The position numbers and the translations under genes are program-made. Under the pieces are notes generated by a model. It had not been told where the DNA came from, searched no databases, and saw only the letters and a program-made list of their open reading frames with translations. Positions 35,475-46,192 of a DNA stretch of 64,000 bases are shown in pieces. The stretch is from Bradyrhizobium sp. ISRA430 (lineage in GTDB: Bacteria > Pseudomonadota > Alphaproteobacteria > Rhizobiales > Xanthobacteraceae), in NCBI RefSeq assembly GCF_029909975.1, contig NZ_CP094516.1:6736501-6800500 (forward strand), given 5' to 3'. Numbering within the stretch: the stretch's first letter is position 1; each line of letters begins with the position of its first letter.

Positions 35475-36617
35475 GTGATACCATCTGCCAATTGGTCTGC
35501 CGGCCTGCTTGGGACGCGGCTCGCATTTTTTGTGGCCGGATTCGGCCTCGCGGCATGGGCGCCTTTGGTGCCACTCGCCAAGGAGCGGCTCGCGGTGGAT
35601 GACCGCATGCTTGGTCTTCTTCTGCTCTGTCTCGGAACGGGATCCGTCGTCGCTATGCTTTTGACCAGCGTGTCGAATGCGCGGTACGGCAGCAGGCCCA
35701 TTATCCTCGCGGGTGGACTTGGACTCGCGATCATCCTGCCGTGGCTTGCAATTGCCGACACACCTCTCGGGCTCGGTGCCACGCTGTTTGCTTTCGGCGT
35801 TTCACTCGGCTCGATCGATGTAGCCATGAACATTCATGCGATTGACTTGGAGCGCGCCACCGGCCGTCCATTGATGTCTGGCTTCCACGCCCAGTACAGC
35901 ATTGGGGAATTCACCGGCTCTGCCGCCGTGACCTCGTTCCTCTCGCTACAGCTTGGCGCGCGTTCTTCGACGTTGGTCTGCTCAGCGGTAATGACGATCG
36001 CGATTGTGTCGGCCTGGCCGGGCTTGCTCGCGACGGGTTCGAGGCAGCAGGGGCCATTGTTTGTCTTGCCTCATCGCAGTGTGTTGCTAATAGCTGTGCT
36101 CGCGGCTATTACCTTTCTTGTCGAAGGTGCAATGCTCGATTGGAGCGCTTTGCTTCTCGTTGGGCGAAATCTTCTCGCGGAGGCGCACGGGGGCATCGGT
36201 TGTATGCTCTTTTCAATCGCAATGACCGCAGGGCGTCTCAGCGGAGATGCCGTGGTGGCGCGAATCGGGGACCGTGCCACATTGATGCTTGGGACACTGC
36301 CGATCGTGACAGGCTTCTTGGCTGTGGTGGCCGCGCCCGTCGCGTTGATTGCTATGGTGGGGTTCCTGCTTATTGGATTGGGTATTTCAAATGTTGTACC
36401 CGTACTGTGTCGCTGTGCCGGCAAACAGAAAGTGATGCCAGCAGGCGTTGCGATCGCGGTCATCACGACAGGCGGCTACGCGGGTATACTCGTCGGGCCC
36501 GCTGGCGTCGGGCTCGTCGCCTACATCTTTGGCTTGCCCTTGGCGTTCGCGATGTTAGGCGCGCTCATGTCCATCGTTACGCTGTCGGCGAGGATGATAA
36601 TGACAGACCATCGTTAA
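35475..36617 (+). CDS. Major facilitator superfamily transporter
   Basis: 380 residues from a GTG with AGGAG five bases ahead. About 12 hydrophobic helices, the first GLLGTRLAFFVAGFGLAAWA. Segments GASLGSIDVAMNIHAI (here FGVSLGSIDVAMNIHAIDLE), SGFHAQYSIGEFTGSA and AMLDWSALLL are those of the small MFS subfamily related to YbjJ-like permeases. These are often fucose- or drug-transporter-like, substrate unknown. Lies upstream of, and convergent with, the nolK-noeL pair. It looks intact. The following 36618-36930 stretch holds no gene or clear signal. Confidence 0.75.
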   Translation: MIPSANWSAGLLGTRLAFFVAGFGLAAWAPLVPLAKERLAVDDRMLGLLLLCLGTGSVVAMLLTSVSNARYGSRPIILAGGLGLAIILPWLAIADTPLGLGATLFAFGVSLGSIDVAMNIHAIDLERATGRPLMSGFHAQYSIGEFTGSAAVTSFLSLQLGARSSTLVCSAVMTIAIVSAWPGLLATGSRQQGPLFVLPHRSVLLIAVLAAITFLVEGAMLDWSALLLVGRNLLAEAHGGIGCMLFSIAMTAGRLSGDAVVARIGDRATLMLGTLPIVTGFLAVVAAPVALIAMVGFLLIGLGISNVVPVLCRCAGKQKVMPAGVAIAVITTGGYAGILVGPAGVGLVAYIFGLPLAFAMLGALMSIVTLSARMIMTDHR

Positions 36618-38974: not shown

Positions 38975-40001
38975 GGTCTCCCTTGGTTGCGCCGCAAAGA
39001 GCCTCGCTTTGAAACACAATTGCGAAGCCATTTCTCGAAAAATCTAGATGCGCACGCGCGCTCCACCCGCAATTAAAGGAAAGCGATCGTTAGCTCCAGT
39101 CATACAGATCGTGCAGGAATGCACACTATATACATTGATTTATATTTGTACTGAAGGATGCCAACACATTGAGCCTCAAAAATGAAGCCCACTAACCCTG
39201 GCAATGCGATAATCCTAAGCAGGCGAGATGGATGGCAAAACGCCGTTACGCGCGCCCGGGGTGCGCTTGCCCCTGGGCGATATTTCCAATGAGATAGAAG
39301 CGACGGTCTGTGCTCCTTATCTATCCTCAGGCGCATGTGTGCATTCGCGTGGTCTCGTCATGGCGTGGGAGAGCGACGAGCTGAGGCCGCATTCGTCAAT
39401 GCATTTGTCGGAATGAGACATGCAAGCCAGCACACGGCCAAGCCTGCTCATAGAGCCTAGTCTACAAAGCGCTGTTAACTTCCGAACAGAACACGCAGTC
39501 TTGCAGGTCGACTCATCAACCATGATCAGCGCCGTTGCCAATATCCAACTCGCGGCAGGCAGTGGATGGTCGACGCGAGACAAAGTGAGAAAGAGTAGCA
39601 AACGTTGGTATAGTTCGTCGAACGTTTCGATATCGAGAGCTTACTTTCGTACAATGGAGCTTCGACGCTAATCCTTTAACCTTGACCGAGCGTAAGTTGC
39701 CTCGGTTCGAGTATGATAAGTCTCTTAAACCCGCGCCGGAAAAATGTCTCCAGTAAGACAGGACAATTCAAGCTAGAGCTGCTGCGCGGTTTGTACTCGA
39801 TCGGCAGCCAAAAGCGGAATGTAGCCGGGCGAAGCGATATGGCTGAAAGAGATCTAACTCACGCTTGTGAATGCGGCGGCGATACAGGCGGCCGCGAAAA
39901 ATCCCGAACTTGACACCTGTTAGCATCGGGCAAGCGAATTTCATGACCGGGTTCCTGTAGGGGGACGTCGGAATCCTTAAACTTGGGCTGCATTGATCGA
40001 T
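38975..40001. other. Divergent intergenic region between noeL and nodM
   Basis: About 1 kb without a gene. A search by eye for the conserved nod-box blocks found none on either strand. Frames here are short and unsupported. The only candidate signal is the tts-box-like sequence at 39624-39651. Confidence 0.4.
39624..39651 (+). promoter_or_regulatory. Weak tts-box-like sequence
   Basis: GTTTCGATATCGAGAGCT followed nine to ten bases later by TA resembles the second half of the rhizobial TtsI-binding box (TCG-A-A-AGCT, spacer, TA); the first half (GTCAG) does not match well. It lies about 350 bases before nodM, which is not a usual type III target. May be chance. Confidence 0.2.
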
Positions 40002-41828
40002 ATGTGTGGAATTGTTGGCATTCTTGGGCGTGGTCCGGTCGTTGGGCAGTTGGTCGCGTCGCTCAAGCGATTGGAATATCGCGGCTACGACTCCGCAGGC
40101 CTCGCGACTCTCGAAGGTCTCCGTATCGAGCGCCGCCGCGCTGAAGGTAAGCTGAGAAACCTTGAGGAGCAGCTGCGCTATTATCCTCCGTCGGGTCATA
40201 CCGGCATCGGTCATACCCGCTGGGCGACACATGGAAAGCCGACCGAGAGCAATGCTCACCCGCATGCGACGGAGAACGTCGCGGTCGTTCATAACGGGAT
40301 CATTGAGAATTTCCGCGAGCTGCGAGCCGAACTGGAGCGGAATGGGGCCCATTTTAACTCAGAGACAGACACGGAGGTGGTGGCGCATCTCGTCGAATCT
40401 TATCTCAAGAAGGGCTACTCGCCGCAGGATGCGGTACAAGCGTCGCTGCCGCGGCTGCGCGGTGCCTTCGCACTGGCATTCCTTTTCAAGGCCCACGACG
40501 ACCTTTTGATCGGTGCGCGTAAGGGGTCGCCCCTTGCGATTGGACATGGTAACGGCGAAGTGTATCTAGGATCGGACGCGATCGCGCTCGCGCCTTTGAC
40601 CGACACCATCACCTATCTTGAGGACGGCGACTGGGCCGTGCTTACGCGCACGATGTGCGTGATTTATAGCTCAGACGGATCTGTCGTCCAGCGGGAAACA
40701 TCAAAGTCTGGCGTATCGTCACTCCTTGTAGACAAAGCGAATTATCGCCACTTCATGGCGAAGGAAATCCACGAGCAGCCGACAGTGGCCGGCAAGACAT
40801 TGGCGCATTATCTCGACATGGCGGCCAAGCGCGTCGCCCTGCCGCTCACATTGCCGTTCGACTTTAAATCCATTCAGCGCATCTCTATTACCGCGTGCGG
40901 CACTGCAAGCTATGCCGGACACATCGCCAAATACTGGTTCGAGCGGCTGGCGCGCTTGCCTGTCGAGATCGATGTAGCGTCCGAGTTCCGCTACAGGGAG
41001 GCACCTTTGCGCCGGGGCGATCTCGCGATCGTCATCTCGCAGTCGGGCGAAACCGCTGACACGCTAGCTGCGTTGCGATACGCCAAGGACCAGGGCGTGC
41101 ACACGATATCTGTGGTCAACGTCCCGACGTCGACGATTGCGCGGGAGAGCGAATCCGTTCTGCCGACGCTGGCGGGGCCAGAAATCGGCGTCGCCTCCAC
41201 CAAGGCGTTCATCTGCCAGCTGATGGTATTGGCGGCGCTTGCCGTCGCAGCGGGAAAAGAGCGCGGTAAGCTGTCTGAGATCGATGAATCGAAGCTTGTG
41301 CGTGAGCTTATCGAAGTGCCGCGGTTGATTGCTGCGGCGCTGTTGATCGAGCCGCAGATCGAGAAGCTCGCGCGTTATATCGCCGATACAAGGGACGTGC
41401 TCTATCTCGGTCGTGGCACATCGGCCCCCCTGGCGTTGGAGGGCGCACTCAAGCTGAAGGAAATTGCCTATATCCACTCAGAAGGTTATGCCGCCGGCGA
41501 GCTCAAGCACGGACCGATCGCACTGATAGATGAGGCAGTGCCTGTTGTGGTGATCGCGCCTTATGACAAGGTCTTCGAGAAGACCGTCTCGAATATGCAA
41601 GAAGTTGCGGCTCGGGGCGGCAAGATCATCCTGATCACCGATTCGAAGGGTGCTTTGGAAGCGACGGTGGACACACTCATGACCATTGTGCTGCCGGAGA
41701 TGGTCGCAAGCTTTACGCCGATGGTCTATGCCATTCCGGTTCAGCTCTTGGCTTACCATACCGCCCTCGTAAGGGGCGCGGACGTGGATCAGCCGCGTAA
41801 TCTAGCAAAATCGGTGACTGTGGAATAA
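40002..41828 (+). CDS. nodM: Glutamine:fructose-6-phosphate aminotransferase (glucosamine synthase)
   Basis: 608 residues. The start at 40002 is set by the family: MCGIVGILGRG, where Cys becomes the N-terminal nucleophile after Met removal. Residues 1-220 are the glutaminase domain (HTRWATHGKPTESNAHPH, VVHNGIIENF). Two sugar-isomerase domains follow (ACGTASYAGHIAKYWFERLA, SQSGETADTLAALRYA; SEGYAAGELKHGPIALIDEA), and the end is DQPRNLAKSVTVE. It makes glucosamine-6-phosphate for UDP-GlcNAc, the unit of the Nod-factor backbone. In a symbiosis region next to noeL and nolK this copy is best named nodM, a paralog of the housekeeping glmS. Ribosome binding site is weak. Confidence 0.9.
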   Translation: MCGIVGILGRGPVVGQLVASLKRLEYRGYDSAGLATLEGLRIERRRAEGKLRNLEEQLRYYPPSGHTGIGHTRWATHGKPTESNAHPHATENVAVVHNGIIENFRELRAELERNGAHFNSETDTEVVAHLVESYLKKGYSPQDAVQASLPRLRGAFALAFLFKAHDDLLIGARKGSPLAIGHGNGEVYLGSDAIALAPLTDTITYLEDGDWAVLTRTMCVIYSSDGSVVQRETSKSGVSSLLVDKANYRHFMAKEIHEQPTVAGKTLAHYLDMAAKRVALPLTLPFDFKSIQRISITACGTASYAGHIAKYWFERLARLPVEIDVASEFRYREAPLRRGDLAIVISQSGETADTLAALRYAKDQGVHTISVVNVPTSTIARESESVLPTLAGPEIGVASTKAFICQLMVLAALAVAAGKERGKLSEIDESKLVRELIEVPRLIAAALLIEPQIEKLARYIADTRDVLYLGRGTSAPLALEGALKLKEIAYIHSEGYAAGELKHGPIALIDEAVPVVVIAPYDKVFEKTVSNMQEVAARGGKIILITDSKGALEATVDTLMTIVLPEMVASFTPMVYAIPVQLLAYHTALVRGADVDQPRNLAKSVTVE

Positions 41829-41899: not shown

Positions 41900-42215
41900 T
41901 CAACAGGTCAATCATAGGCCGATCCAGCTCGATGAGCAGAGTCAGTCTTGCTTGCGTCATCATCGTCAACCGACTAACGCCAATGGGAGCGAGCGTTACC
42001 TTCCTGTCGTCAAGCGGACCGGTCGATAACAAGTGGGAATCACGGACAATTGGGAGATCCAAGTCGGCTCTAGGTTACCCAGCCTGCTATCTGCTTTGCA
42101 GGGCCAAATCAGCCTGAAGCTCGATGCACAAAAGATATTCTCTAACTCATCCTCCCACCTTGCCGAAGCCGACGAGCAAGTCGGTGCACACAACAGCTTC
42201 GGGTCGCTCCGTCGT
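41900..42215 (+). pseudogene. Decayed duplicate of the nopP leader and N-terminus
   Basis: This stretch resembles, in order, the region 45106-45470. TCAACAGGTCAATCA at 41900-41914 matches TCAGCAGGTCAATCA at 45106-45120. AACGCCAATGGGAGCGAGCG near 41976 matches AATGCCAATGGCACGAGCG near 45190. GCCTGAAGCTCGATGC matches GCCTAAGCTAGATGC, and then the coding piece SNSSSHLAEADEQVGAHNSF matches NopP residues 8-27 (SSYFQSSHFAETDEQMDADN). Spacings are similar (76 and 84 bases between the first two blocks). The frame has no start and ends soon after, so this is a dead paralog fragment. Confidence 0.6.
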
Positions 42216-42498
42216 GGCTTATTCACTGGGAGCGCATACGCGCGACAACTGACTTTTCTTGATTGCCAGCATCCGCCCCATGTCGGGCACGTTGAGCATG
42301 CACTTCGACCCCCCGGGGACGATAGCTTAGGATTAGCAGTTCGGTTTGTCGCTTAGATCGCGCGTAGCAGCGGCTCACGCAATCCGGTTGGACCATACGC
42401 GCTACCGCGGCCCTCCCAGCTGCTACGTGTCATCAAATGGATTGTTAGAAACCTGACATTCCCGCGCAAGTTCGAGGGCCTAAAACTGAGTGCAGGGC

Positions 42499-42525: not shown

Positions 42526-42946
42526 CCCGGCTGTAGCGGCAGGAGAGTACTATTAGTCATTATATACTCCAGCGGCCGACCCGCTCGTATAGCAGGATCT
42601 ACCAGCCTAGCTGGCGACGCGGGATTTAGCGCGACTGGCAACTCCGGTTGGTGGGCCAGCGATCGCATCCGGTTCCTACCGAGGAGCCGCAGATCTGGTT
42701 GACCAGAATAACCGCTCCTCATTCTGGGCACGGGATTTGCTGTCCCGCTCCTCGAACGTGCTGTCAACGCATGTCTGGGAGGACCGCGCCTTAGGGCAGC
42801 CTCTCCATTTCTATCGTTTTGAAGCCTCGCACCGAGAGTACGAGTGTGCAGCCGCAAATCTCAGGGCGACAAGCTCAACAACGCAATCGTGGTGAGGTGG
42901 CTTGGCAGGCTAGGTCTCCGCTCGCCACACTCCAAGGAGGAACGCG

Positions 42947-44911
42947 ATGAATGATCGCAATGTGGCCGAAGTCGATCTTCACAACCTACAGGTCTCGGAT
43001 CCACTGATTGGGCAATGCCAGCAGTTGGTCAGGGAAGTGGCAATTCCCTACCAATGGGAGGTACTAAACGATCGCAATCCCGAGGTGATACCGAGTCACG
43101 CGGTAGAGAACTTCCGCCTTGCTGCAGGACGTGCGAGGGGCGAGTTCCATGGCACGGTTTTTCAGGACAGTGACGTCGCAAAATGGCTTGAGGCGGCTGC
43201 ATGGTCGCTGTGCCAGGCACCAAATCCAGACCTGGAGAAAGCCGTCGATGAGCTGATTGAATTGATTGCGGCCGCCCAAGGCGGCGACGGTTATCTCAAC
43301 ACTTATTTCATACTGAACGCGCCTCAGGAGCGCTGGACCAACCTAACGGAGTGCCACGAGCTTTATTGCGCTGGCCACTTGATTGAAGCGGGTGTCGCAT
43401 TCTTTCAGGGGACTGGCAAACGGCGATTGCTGGAGGTCGTTTGCAGGCTTGCTGACCACCTCTGCACAGTTTTCGGCCCAGAGCGCGATCAGTTGCACGG
43501 CTATGATGGCCATCCGGAAATCGAACTTGCGTTGGCACGCCTCTACGAAGCGACAAAGGAGCAGCGATATCTCACGCTAGCCAATTATTTCTTGGAGCAA
43601 CGTGGCACGGAGCCACACTTCTACGACATTGAGTACGAGAAGCGCCAGCAATCCTGCGTGCCCAAATCCGATGGCACGCCTTGGATGATAAAGAACAAAG
43701 CGTATAGCCAAGCGCACTTGCCCCTTTCGGAGCAGCGGACTGCAACCGGTCACGCGGTTCGTTTTGTATACCTCATGACGGCAGTAGCTCATCTCGCGCG
43801 TCTGCGCCAGAACGAGGAGCAGCGCAAAACTTGCCTACGGCTATGGCAAAACATGGTCCAGCGCCAGATCTATATTACCGGAGCCATCGGCTCGCAAGGC
43901 GCCGGCGAAGCGTTCAGCAGCGATTACGATTTGCCAAATGACACGGCATACGCGGAAAGTTGCGCGTCGATTGGCCTGATGATGTTCGCGCGCCGTATGC
44001 TGGAGATGGAACTGGACGGTCGCTATGCCGACGTGATGGAGCGTGCGCTCTACAATACCGTTCTCGGCAGTATCGCGTTCGACGGGCGTCACTATTTCTA
44101 TGTTAACCCGCTCGAAGTGCATCCCAAAACGCTGAGGTCTAATGGCATCTACAATCACGTCTCGCCGGTGCGACGACGCTGGTTTGGCTGCGCGTGCTGT
44201 CCACCGAACATCGCACGCCTTTTCACATCGATTGGTCATTACATCTACACGCCCAGCACCGACGCGCTCTATGTAAATCTCTACGTTGGTAATAGGGTGG
44301 CAATATCCGTCGACGGACATGCGCTGCGGTTGCTCATAAGCGGCAGCTATCCCTGGAGAGACGAGGTGGAAATCGCCGTCGAATCTGCGCCGCCAATTGC
44401 CCACACGCTCGCCCTGCGCCTGCCGGAATGGTGCAGCGCGCCGCAGGCGAGCGTGAACGGCGAGCCTGTGAATTGCGAGCCGCGCAAGGGCTATTTGCAC
44501 ATTCACCGAACCTGGCGGCAGGGAGATCGCGTCAAACTATCGCTGCCAATGCAAGTGCGTCGCGTATACGGCCATCCACAACTTCGCAATTTGGCCGGCA
44601 AGGTGGCCATCCAGCGTGGCCCCTTAATTTATTGTCTGGAGGAGGCCGACAACGGGAACGAGTTGCACAACGTTTGGCTTGGTGCAGACAGTCAGTTTTC
44701 CCTTATCGAAGGAACTGGTCTCTTTAGTGGCAAGATCTTGCTGCAGGCCGGCGGGGCGCGGTTGCAACACACGCATTCTGAAGAAGCGGCGCTTTATCAA
44801 TACGACAAAATGCCTGGACAGCTAGAACCGCAGCGGCTGACATTCATTCCGTGGTTCAGCTGGGCTAACCGCGGCGAAGGCGAAATGCGGATTTGGGTAA
44901 ATGAGCGTTGA
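42947..44911 (+). CDS. GH127 beta-L-arabinofuranosidase
   Basis: 654 residues; AAGGAGGAACGCG gives a strong ribosome binding site. The protein fits glycoside hydrolase family 127 (old DUF1680) along its full length; the type enzyme HypBA1 has 658. Zinc-thiolate active-site residues are all present at nearly the same numbers as in HypBA1: Glu321 (acid/base; GEAFSSDYDL), Glu337 and Cys339 (AYAESCA), Cys417 (nucleophile) and Cys418 in FGCACCPPNIARLF. The enzyme removes terminal beta-L-arabinofuranose, as found on hydroxyproline-rich plant glycoproteins and on arabinosylated signalling peptides. No signal peptide, so it acts in the cytoplasm or is exported by another route. It stands alone, followed 450 bases later by nopP. 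Confidence 0.9.
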   Translation: MNDRNVAEVDLHNLQVSDPLIGQCQQLVREVAIPYQWEVLNDRNPEVIPSHAVENFRLAAGRARGEFHGTVFQDSDVAKWLEAAAWSLCQAPNPDLEKAVDELIELIAAAQGGDGYLNTYFILNAPQERWTNLTECHELYCAGHLIEAGVAFFQGTGKRRLLEVVCRLADHLCTVFGPERDQLHGYDGHPEIELALARLYEATKEQRYLTLANYFLEQRGTEPHFYDIEYEKRQQSCVPKSDGTPWMIKNKAYSQAHLPLSEQRTATGHAVRFVYLMTAVAHLARLRQNEEQRKTCLRLWQNMVQRQIYITGAIGSQGAGEAFSSDYDLPNDTAYAESCASIGLMMFARRMLEMELDGRYADVMERALYNTVLGSIAFDGRHYFYVNPLEVHPKTLRSNGIYNHVSPVRRRWFGCACCPPNIARLFTSIGHYIYTPSTDALYVNLYVGNRVAISVDGHALRLLISGSYPWRDEVEIAVESAPPIAHTLALRLPEWCSAPQASVNGEPVNCEPRKGYLHIHRTWRQGDRVKLSLPMQVRRVYGHPQLRNLAGKVAIQRGPLIYCLEEADNGNELHNVWLGADSQFSLIEGTGLFSGKILLQAGGARLQHTHSEEAALYQYDKMPGQLEPQRLTFIPWFSWANRGEGEMRIWVNER

Positions 44912-45364
44912 CGCCGAACGCGCGGTCGCGCTTCCACGAGTCGACGTTAGGCTATGTTTCTGGGGCAGGCGATATCGTTGCTCAAAGTCTGGAAATCGGC
45001 CAATCTATGGAAGGCGGTCCGCGAGCTCCACTGGAACGTTGAAAAGAAAACCTGGATATGAGGCGGCCGCGGCGGAACTCCGAAAAGAGTACGATCCGAT
45101 TGGCGTCAGCAGGTCAATCAGCGATCAACCAAATTCCTAATAGAGGCGCTTCCTCGGAGCTGTTCGCGGCCTCTCATCAAAACCTGATGAATGCCAATGG
45201 CACGAGCGTGTGCCGCCGTGTCGTTCAGAAGGAAGCCCTATGACAAGCCAACGTGAGGGCGGCCACGTCAGGTTTTGGTAAGCCAAGCTCCCTATCAGCG
45301 CCGCTGGGCTTAACAAGCCTAAGCTAGATGCGGAAATGTATGTCCGACGGGAGCACCAATCGCC
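44912..45364. other. nopP leader region
   Basis: About 450 bases between the arabinofuranosidase and nopP, with no supported gene; a 79-codon plus frame at 44901-45140 has no recognisable domain. It contains the TtsI-box-like candidate at 45105-45122 and the blocks shared with 41900-42215. Confidence 0.45.
45105..45122 (+). promoter_or_regulatory. Possible divergent tts box of nopP
   Basis: GTCAGCAGGTCAATCAGC starts with the GTCAGC of the TtsI box and has TC at the right place, but the TCGAAAGCT half is poor. It is 243 bases before the nopP start, a normal distance, and its core (CAGGTCAATCA) is kept in the decayed copy at 41900-41914. Support comes from conservation between copies rather than from the consensus match. 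Confidence 0.3.
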
Positions 45365-46192
45365 ATGTATAATCGGATCAATGGCTCGTCCTACTTCCAA
45401 TCCTCTCACTTTGCCGAAACTGATGAGCAAATGGACGCAGACAACTTTGCGGATGCGTTCGCCAATATGCGCTTAGCCGAATCTGGCTCGAGTGGCAGTT
45501 CATCTTCGGCAACAAGACCGTATTCGCTCGTTTCAACCCCTCCCATCATAGAGTTCAGGGATCGTCAGTCATTCCGAAAAGCCGCGGAGGCCTATCACGG
45601 CGACGAAATCAATTACATCGCCGACAACCCCCAAGAGTACTCCGACTTCGTGTCCGCCAAGGCAAGGCGAACTGCAGAAGTTGCCAAAGACTACGGGACA
45701 ACCCGAGATTCCGAGAATGCGCGATACTTCAGCTACCAATTGGGCAACAAGAGTGTCGGACTTCTAAGAATGGAAGGCGGTGACAGCATGACCGAGTTCG
45801 ACGTCAAAAGGTGGAAGAAGCTATTTCCTGGACGCCACGGGACTACCTCTACTGTGGATCTTCAAGTCGTTCATCCGCTTGTCGAGAACGCTGGCGATAT
45901 CCTCCTCGAGCATCAGCTTCGAATAGACGGCGAACAGCCGCTGCTGAATTTGCGTCCGGCCAATCCCGAAGCAAGAGCCCGTGCGGCAAAGATGGGATTC
46001 GTCGAGGTTGACGCCGACAACATGGTTCTCGACCCAGAGAAGTCAGACAAGTGGGTAAGGAATAGCGACGGCGACTGGCAGCGAAAAGGCACTGCCGCGC
46101 GGTATCTTTCCAAAGCTGACGACAGTGAAGGTAGTGATACCGAGATCCCAGCGAGCCCCTCAACGTACGATTATGAGGATGATTTTATGTGA
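45365..46192 (+). CDS. nopP: NopP-like type III secreted effector
   Basis: 275 residues beginning MYNRINGSSYFQSSHFAETD, which I recognise as the NopP type of nodulation outer protein. Residues 1-55 are Ser/Gly-rich, as expected for a type III secretion signal. The C-terminal half reads like a GNAT fold: YFSYQLGNKSVGLLRMEGGD (strands 2-3), VDLQVVHPLVENAGDILLEH (strand 4 and a degenerate acetyl-CoA loop), LLNLRPANPEARARAAKMGF and VEVDADNMVLDP (motif-B-like). The tail is acidic (SEGSDTEIPASPSTYDYEDD). NopP proteins are phosphorylated by plant kinases, and in soybean bradyrhizobia they set compatibility with Rj2 hosts. The secretion machinery itself is not in the window. Confidence 0.8.
   Translation: MYNRINGSSYFQSSHFAETDEQMDADNFADAFANMRLAESGSSGSSSSATRPYSLVSTPPIIEFRDRQSFRKAAEAYHGDEINYIADNPQEYSDFVSAKARRTAEVAKDYGTTRDSENARYFSYQLGNKSVGLLRMEGGDSMTEFDVKRWKKLFPGRHGTTSTVDLQVVHPLVENAGDILLEHQLRIDGEQPLLNLRPANPEARARAAKMGFVEVDADNMVLDPEKSDKWVRNSDGDWQRKGTAARYLSKADDSEGSDTEIPASPSTYDYEDDFM

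Follow-up and report, generated by a model that had tools for sequence, protein, structure and literature searches.

A GH127 beta-L-arabinofuranosidase gene of nodulating Bradyrhizobium with a probable sigma54 promoter

The symbiosis island of Bradyrhizobium sp. ISRA430 carries a GH127 beta-L-arabinofuranosidase gene that, to judge from its phylogeny, came from gammaproteobacteria and was fixed in the island, and that would be expressed in the nodule from a sigma54 promoter to give a cytoplasmic enzyme splitting imported beta-L-arabinofuranosides. This reading as a whole is given a probability of about 0.62. The gene lies in a stretch of 64,000 nucleotides from contig NZ_CP094516.1 (positions 6,736,501 to 6,800,500), hereafter the window, to which the coordinates refer unless another locus is named. 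The enzyme family is already known; what appears to be new is its capture by nodulating Bradyrhizobium and its apparent sigma54 control. No description of GH127 in Bradyrhizobium, of its capture or of its sigma54 control was found in the open-access literature, as judged by titles and the beginnings of abstracts. Since beta-L-arabinofuranose on hydroxyproline is a mark of plant extensins and signalling peptides, a captured, selected and apparently nodule-controlled GH127 offers a direct way to ask whether bacteroids use host glycopeptides as food or disturb their action.

The gene and its surroundings

The features of the gene and of its immediate neighbours were as follows.

39993..41828, + strand: nodM (glmS-type), the upstream neighbour of GH127
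42149..42194, + strand: decayed piece of nopP in the nodM-GH127 interval, identical at 36 of 46 nt to nopP positions 45400-45445
42935..42940, + strand: ribosome-binding site AGGAGG of the GH127 gene, from the sequence
42947..44911, + strand: GH127 beta-L-arabinofuranosidase coding sequence, 654 residues, ATG start and TGA stop; predicted to be cytoplasmic
43907..43909, + strand: codon of E321 (E322 in HypBA1), from the alignment; invariant in 35 of 35 copies
44195..44200, + strand: codons of C417, which aligns with the nucleophile of HypBA1, and of the zinc ligand C418, with roles as given in an excerpt of PMC10728902
45365..46192, + strand: nopP, a type III effector gene and the downstream neighbour of GH127; its relatives are named NopP by their sources

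The start of the open reading frame was well defined, with an in-frame stop at 42911 and no other start codon between 42911 and 42947. All three GH127 Pfam domains (catalytic, E 4e-107, middle and C-terminal) scored above their cut-offs. The chemistry of the family, according to an excerpt of PMC10728902, depends on C417 as the nucleophile, a carboxylate pair, and a zinc site of three cysteines and one glutamate. The first-pass annotation had listed the zinc-thiolate residues at positions 321, 337, 339, 417 and 418, and the alignment to HypBA1 (3wkw) agreed at each, with E321, E337, C339, C417 and C418 falling on E322, E338, C340, C417 and C418. By alignment, the cysteine nucleophile, the zinc site of three cysteines and one glutamate and the second glutamate are thus all in place. 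The gene is, as judged from its domains and these residues, that of an intact and catalytically complete beta-L-arabinofuranosidase. A self-search of the genome at E up to 0.001 returned no second copy. The name aceric acid hydrolase (NCBIfam NF049879) was also considered and found unsuitable, since the score of 424.6 bits was far under the curated cut-off of 950 bits.

The order of the genes was nolK, noeL, nodM, GH127, nopP, a receiver protein, a FixJ-like regulator, a PAS kinase, dctA and a hydrogenase small-subunit gene, the products of nolK and noeL being a GDP-fucose synthase and a GDP-mannose dehydratase. The FixJ-like regulator and the PAS kinase downstream of nopP are NodW/NodV-like. 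nopP itself (45365..46192) matched no Pfam or NCBIfam model. The earlier statement that GH127 lies alone between nodM and nopP is correct for intact genes; it overlooked the decayed nopP fragment in the same interval, which matched nopP with E 1e-6 and was equalled by none of 100 shuffles. The fragment looks like the remnant of a second nopP copy, and a fuller, divergent nopP (56-58% identity) was seen 4.6-6.6 kb upstream of GH127 in loci L003, L013 and L119.

In L112, L113 and L115 nopP was broken and the adjoining GH127 intact, so GH127 is more than a passenger of the effector gene. As a separate observation, the nopP downstream of an intact GH127 was matched in pieces or partly in these three loci and also in L013 and L119.

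No transporter or sugar regulator gene adjoined GH127, and the genes inspected between 35475 and 53433 included neither partner glycosidases nor a dedicated importer of the kind found in the Bifidobacterium-type HRGP arabinoside cluster. The MFS gene at 35475 was considered as the transporter for GH127 and rejected, having no similarity to the E. coli MFS partner. In a search of the whole genome, run without a positive control, the MFS transporter of the E. coli operon was not found.

Distribution, selection and origin

A GH127 orthologue or remnant was present in 51 of 265 Bradyrhizobium genomes, as an open gene in 35 and as fragments only in 16. Matches were obtained in 57 of the 265, and six with remote homologues only were set aside: G218 (44%) and G077, G087, G177, G213 and G215 (24-31%). 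The fragments ranged down to 55 residues and include possible contig-end cases; the most decayed remnant, in G107, was 51% identical at best, and the open copy in G043 had an altered C-terminus. For nodA, 163 genomes gave matches, 160 of them above the Pfam cut-off, and 139 were retained once 24 with weak matches (best E between 1e-7 and 1e-3) had been dropped.

All 51 carriers of GH127 were nodA-positive, as against 139 of the 265 genomes overall (hypergeometric p 2e-17, a naive value that ignores relatedness), and none of the 126 genomes that lack a strong match to nodA carried GH127. In 17 genomes, four of them with a broken GH127, both genes were on one contig, and the distance between them was 31-733 kb in all except G099, where it was 3.6 Mb. 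GH127 is, on this distribution, really a symbiosis gene of nodulating Bradyrhizobium. It is dispensable in some strains, since 16 of the 51 carriers hold fragments only.

The catalytic residues were kept in all 35 open copies. The dN/dS ratio (NG86) was 0.126-0.258 in each of 19 pairs, which were selected out of 595 possible. GH127 is kept functional by purifying selection.

The nearest relatives outside Bradyrhizobium, among the best 80 loci kept from a collection of 84,980 species, were from Enterobacterales and Xanthomonas. A maximum-likelihood tree was built from 44 proteins, including 16 of the 35 Bradyrhizobium rows, with its long outer branches flagged. The Bradyrhizobium proteins formed one group (100/100), a fork with 100/98 support united them with Enterobacteriaceae and Pantoea, which grouped with each other less firmly (93/69), and all of these fell with Erwinia and Xanthomonas within one group (100/100). 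The GH127s that Sinorhizobium, Rhizobium and Devosia carry on plasmids were distant from the Bradyrhizobium group. An origin from rhizobial plasmids was rejected, because the identity was only 38.7-42.7% (in 40 of 269 rhizobial records) and the tree was also against it. Among 397 sampled Hyphomicrobiales genomes, 66 outside Bradyrhizobium had a match (E up to 1e-100), at 46% identity or less. As read from the tree, GH127 entered Bradyrhizobium from gammaproteobacteria, and probably by a single transfer, since one gammaproteobacterial transfer fits its topology.

Promoter motifs and the question of export

Three sites are relevant to the expression of GH127 and its neighbour.

42443..42458, + strand: TGTTAGAAACCTGACA, candidate NifA-type upstream activator site; all 15 strains share its TGT and ACA
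42726..42741, + strand: GGGCACGggatTTGCT, sigma54 -24/-12 promoter-like site; of 579 windows in 15 strains, the one with the highest conservation overlaps it
45267..45284, + strand: tts-box-like site with 2 mismatches, belonging to nopP and not to GH127

The consensus is TGGCACG-N4-TTGCW for sigma54 and TGT-N10-ACA for NifA in the portion of PMC4999443 consulted, while the NifA site is printed as TGT-N10-AGA in that of PMC3538637. GGGCACGggatTTGCT has one mismatch to the sigma54 consensus, conforms to the -24/-12 pattern, and keeps its GG and GC in all 15 strains. TGTTAGAAACCTGACA is an exact TGT-N10-ACA in which the six key letters, and 10 of the 16 columns, are invariant. Its distance of 267 bp from the sigma54 site downstream is longer than usual for a NifA activator.

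The upstream alignment comprised 560 nt from 15 strains (11 of clade A and 4 of clade B1) and gave 579 windows of 16 nt, against a background in which 47% of the gapless columns were invariant. The best window, with 14 invariant columns, was one base off the sigma54 site, which itself has 13 of 16, and nine of the ten best windows overlapped that site, the tenth being a stretch near -324. Motif counts in the 64,000-nt window were near chance (14 vs 13.4 expected and 10 vs 6.7 expected), and the sigma54 pattern with one mismatch occurred 131 times genome-wide vs 75 for the reversed control. Because motif counts alone prove little, the argument for a promoter is based on conservation. The Nod-box half-pattern was at chance level in the window (47 matches vs 44 expected).

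The eight strains of clade C have different upstream DNA and a sigma54 site of their own, CGGCACRRAAATTGCW, present in all eight between -305 and -332. Thirteen of its 16 columns were invariant, other clade C upstream stretches being better conserved. The TGT-N10-ACA common to the eight is on the downstream side of the promoter and therefore does not count as an activator site; a further one occurs at -947 in L129. L109 and L123-L129 also had a highly conserved stretch, some 280 to 250 nt ahead of GH127 and hence on the gene side of the sigma54 site, that could start a short open reading frame. The clade B2 upstream stretches that were scanned had neither the sigma54 nor the NifA motif, save for a sigma54-like match with 2 mismatches in L120. 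The possibility that the upstream region had been copied from another gene was discarded, as no second copy was found of the 527-nt stretch of the window or of that of clade C (5 of 5 genomes). On the conservation of these motifs, the GH127 gene of the window is probably under a sigma54 promoter and NifA control, and the motifs suggest expression in the nodule phase rather than under flavonoid/TtsI induction.

The first-pass annotation had also pointed to the lack of a signal peptide, in agreement with the absence of a hydrophobic signal at the N-terminus, and had named type III secretion or lysis as the routes that any delivery would need. No tts box was detected upstream of the GH127 gene of the window at up to 3 mismatches, and none at up to 4 within 700 nt. 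The one tts-box-like site of the area was that in front of nopP; with up to 3 mismatches allowed, 5 of 100 shuffles of the window equalled its number of matches. When 10 other GH127 loci were scanned, only L127 had a match, with 4 mismatches and 435 nt above the gene; the weak tts-like matches in clade B2 were inside a peptidase gene. The protein has no N-terminal extension relative to four enterobacterial homologues, which begin at the same point. HypBA1 of Bifidobacterium longum acts inside the cell (PMC7263609, in excerpt), so that a missing signal peptide calls for no special export route, and an excerpt of PMC13304739 on Salmonella places an induced GH127 gene among those for enzymes that are likely cytoplasmic. 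Export of GH127 by the type III route is thus not supported by the sequence features, and nothing found here favours release by lysis or editing of CLE signals.

Proposed role and known GH127 systems

In the proposed mechanism, GH127 would be made in the low-oxygen nodule from the sigma54 (probably NifA-dependent) promoter, small beta-L-arabinofuranosides from the host cell wall or symbiosome would reach the bacterial cytoplasm via an importer, and the zinc-cysteine mechanism of the enzyme would cut them to free L-arabinose. The likeliest substrates are, most plausibly, arabinosides released from hydroxyproline-rich glycoproteins or peptides. This mechanism, which parallels that of Bifidobacterium, would require no export to the host. 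The sequences show the enzyme family, the intact residues, the selection, the confinement to strains with nodA, the origin and the conserved promoter motifs, whereas nodule expression, substrate, uptake and benefit to the symbiosis are what we infer.

Neighbouring genes in other strains bear on the nature of the substrate. A gene for an S9 prolyl oligopeptidase lies directly upstream of GH127, on the same strand, in 10 of 12 clade B2 loci, the exceptions being L092, with other DNA upstream, and L103, where the contig ends. The gap was about 260-290 nt in four measured loci, and the peptidase was intact in all four inspected.

L118:6306-8402: S9 prolyl oligopeptidase gene, intact, upstream of GH127; same place in L120, L121 and L122

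S9 or S10 peptidase genes were also seen near GH127 in L117, where a DPP-IV-type S9 gene split over two overlapping open reading frames lies between GH127 and nopP, and in L122, with a carboxypeptidase-like gene downstream of GH127. G106 (L125) has a full GH51 alpha-L-arabinofuranosidase gene 0.8 kb upstream of GH127 and, on the opposite strand some 6-9 kb upstream, genes for part of a peptide-type ABC importer, and G262 has a GH51 fragment near GH127. The neighbours in clade B2, L117, L122 and G106 would suit an enzyme that acts on arabinosylated proline-rich peptides, but are no proof of it. A further-reaching version of the proposal, in which bacteroids would turn on the captured enzyme along with nitrogen fixation and strip L-arabinose from Hyp-arabinosylated host peptides imported across the symbiosome, one lineage adding the prolyl oligopeptidase to cut the bared peptide, and would so consume and perhaps silence host glycopeptides, is speculative and distinctly doubtful.

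In the genome of the window, the nearest prolyl oligopeptidase relative (76%) is at 5.07 Mb, 1.7 Mb from GH127, and 794 kb separate GH127 from a GH51 alpha-L-arabinofuranosidase gene. A prolyl-oligopeptidase-like sequence at 7338324-7340341 of the genome, matched in two pieces and perhaps a broken gene, was noted about 80 kb from nodA. The GH51 gene at L135:9991-11649 (7572997-7574553 of the genome, - strand) is about 155 kb from nodA and some 8 kb from a C58 (YopT/NopT-type) peptidase gene. GH51 was rejected as a general partner of GH127: it was matched in 40 of the 265 genomes, of which 28 have nodA and 14 have GH127.

The leading alternative, itself unlikely, is ordinary scavenging of plant debris in the soil or rhizosphere, with GH127 hitch-hiking in the island and having no nodule-specific role. 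The homologues do resemble general catabolic genes, a GH51 gene is present in the same genome, and 16 of the 51 carriers have fragments only. However, free-living scavenging does not predict the absence of carriers from the 126 genomes that lack a strong match to nodA, and the conservation of a sigma54/NifA-type promoter also argues against it. A bacterial substrate, such as an arabinoside of a surface glycan or lipo-oligosaccharide made by island genes and trimmed by GH127, is the least probable of the readings. It is brought to mind by the neighbours nolK, noeL and nodM, which make sugar parts of Nod factors, but GH127 has promoter motifs to itself in the interval after nodM, and the copies of clades B2 and C that were viewed in 20-kb surroundings have none of these three genes beside them. 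Moreover, we know of no Bradyrhizobium glycan with beta-L-arabinofuranose.

Editing of host signals, as the first-pass annotation envisaged, is very unlikely. GH127 would have to reach the plant, by type III secretion or lysis, and remove arabinose from CLE peptides or extensins, thereby weakening the autoregulation of nodulation. The restriction to nodA-bearing strains and the adjacent effector gene are compatible with such a role, as is the negative regulation of nodulation in Lotus by a hydroxyproline O-arabinosyltransferase (PMC6322572, in excerpt). Against it are the copy in the window, which lacks a tts box, a signal peptide and an N-terminal addition, the intact GH127 beside a broken nopP in the three loci named above, and the intracellular action of HypBA1 described in the excerpt of PMC7263609. 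Intracellular cleavage of imported arabinosides in the nodule remains the preferred reading.

Among the known systems, the best solved relative is 4qjy/4qk0 (729.7 bits over residues 13-654), with which the domains and catalytic residues are shared. We take 4qjy to be Ara127N of Geobacillus stearothermophilus T6. The 4qjy enzyme differs in coming from a Firmicute, and to our knowledge has no link to symbiosis. The name Ara127N is that used for the G. stearothermophilus T6 enzyme in an excerpt of PMC7889515. Sinorhizobium meliloti and Devosia isolates from legume nodules have a GH127 of the same family in a LacI-sugar ABC operon; these proteins are about 40-42% identical, lie outside the gammaproteobacterial-Bradyrhizobium group and are not the source.

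The nearest group in the tree, the enterobacterial and Xanthomonas GH127s, has 62-70% identity and nearly equal length. The GH127 genes of E. coli, Enterobacter and Xanthomonas follow an MFS transporter gene and are accompanied by a divergent helix-turn-helix or AraC-family regulator gene, whereas the Bradyrhizobium loci inspected were without both. The E. coli gene is also near araD-type genes, and that of Xanthomonas was unannotated and matched in two pieces. Transporter neighbours are as expected of cytoplasmic enzymes. The HypBA1 locus differs in having HypAA, HypBA2 and an ABC importer, none of which adjoins GH127 in Bradyrhizobium, but the catalytic set of HypBA1 (3wkw, 494.3 bits) is identical to that of the Bradyrhizobium enzyme, and HypBA1, according to the excerpt of PMC7263609, splits beta-Ara2 from plant hydroxyproline-rich glycoproteins inside the cell, behind its importer.
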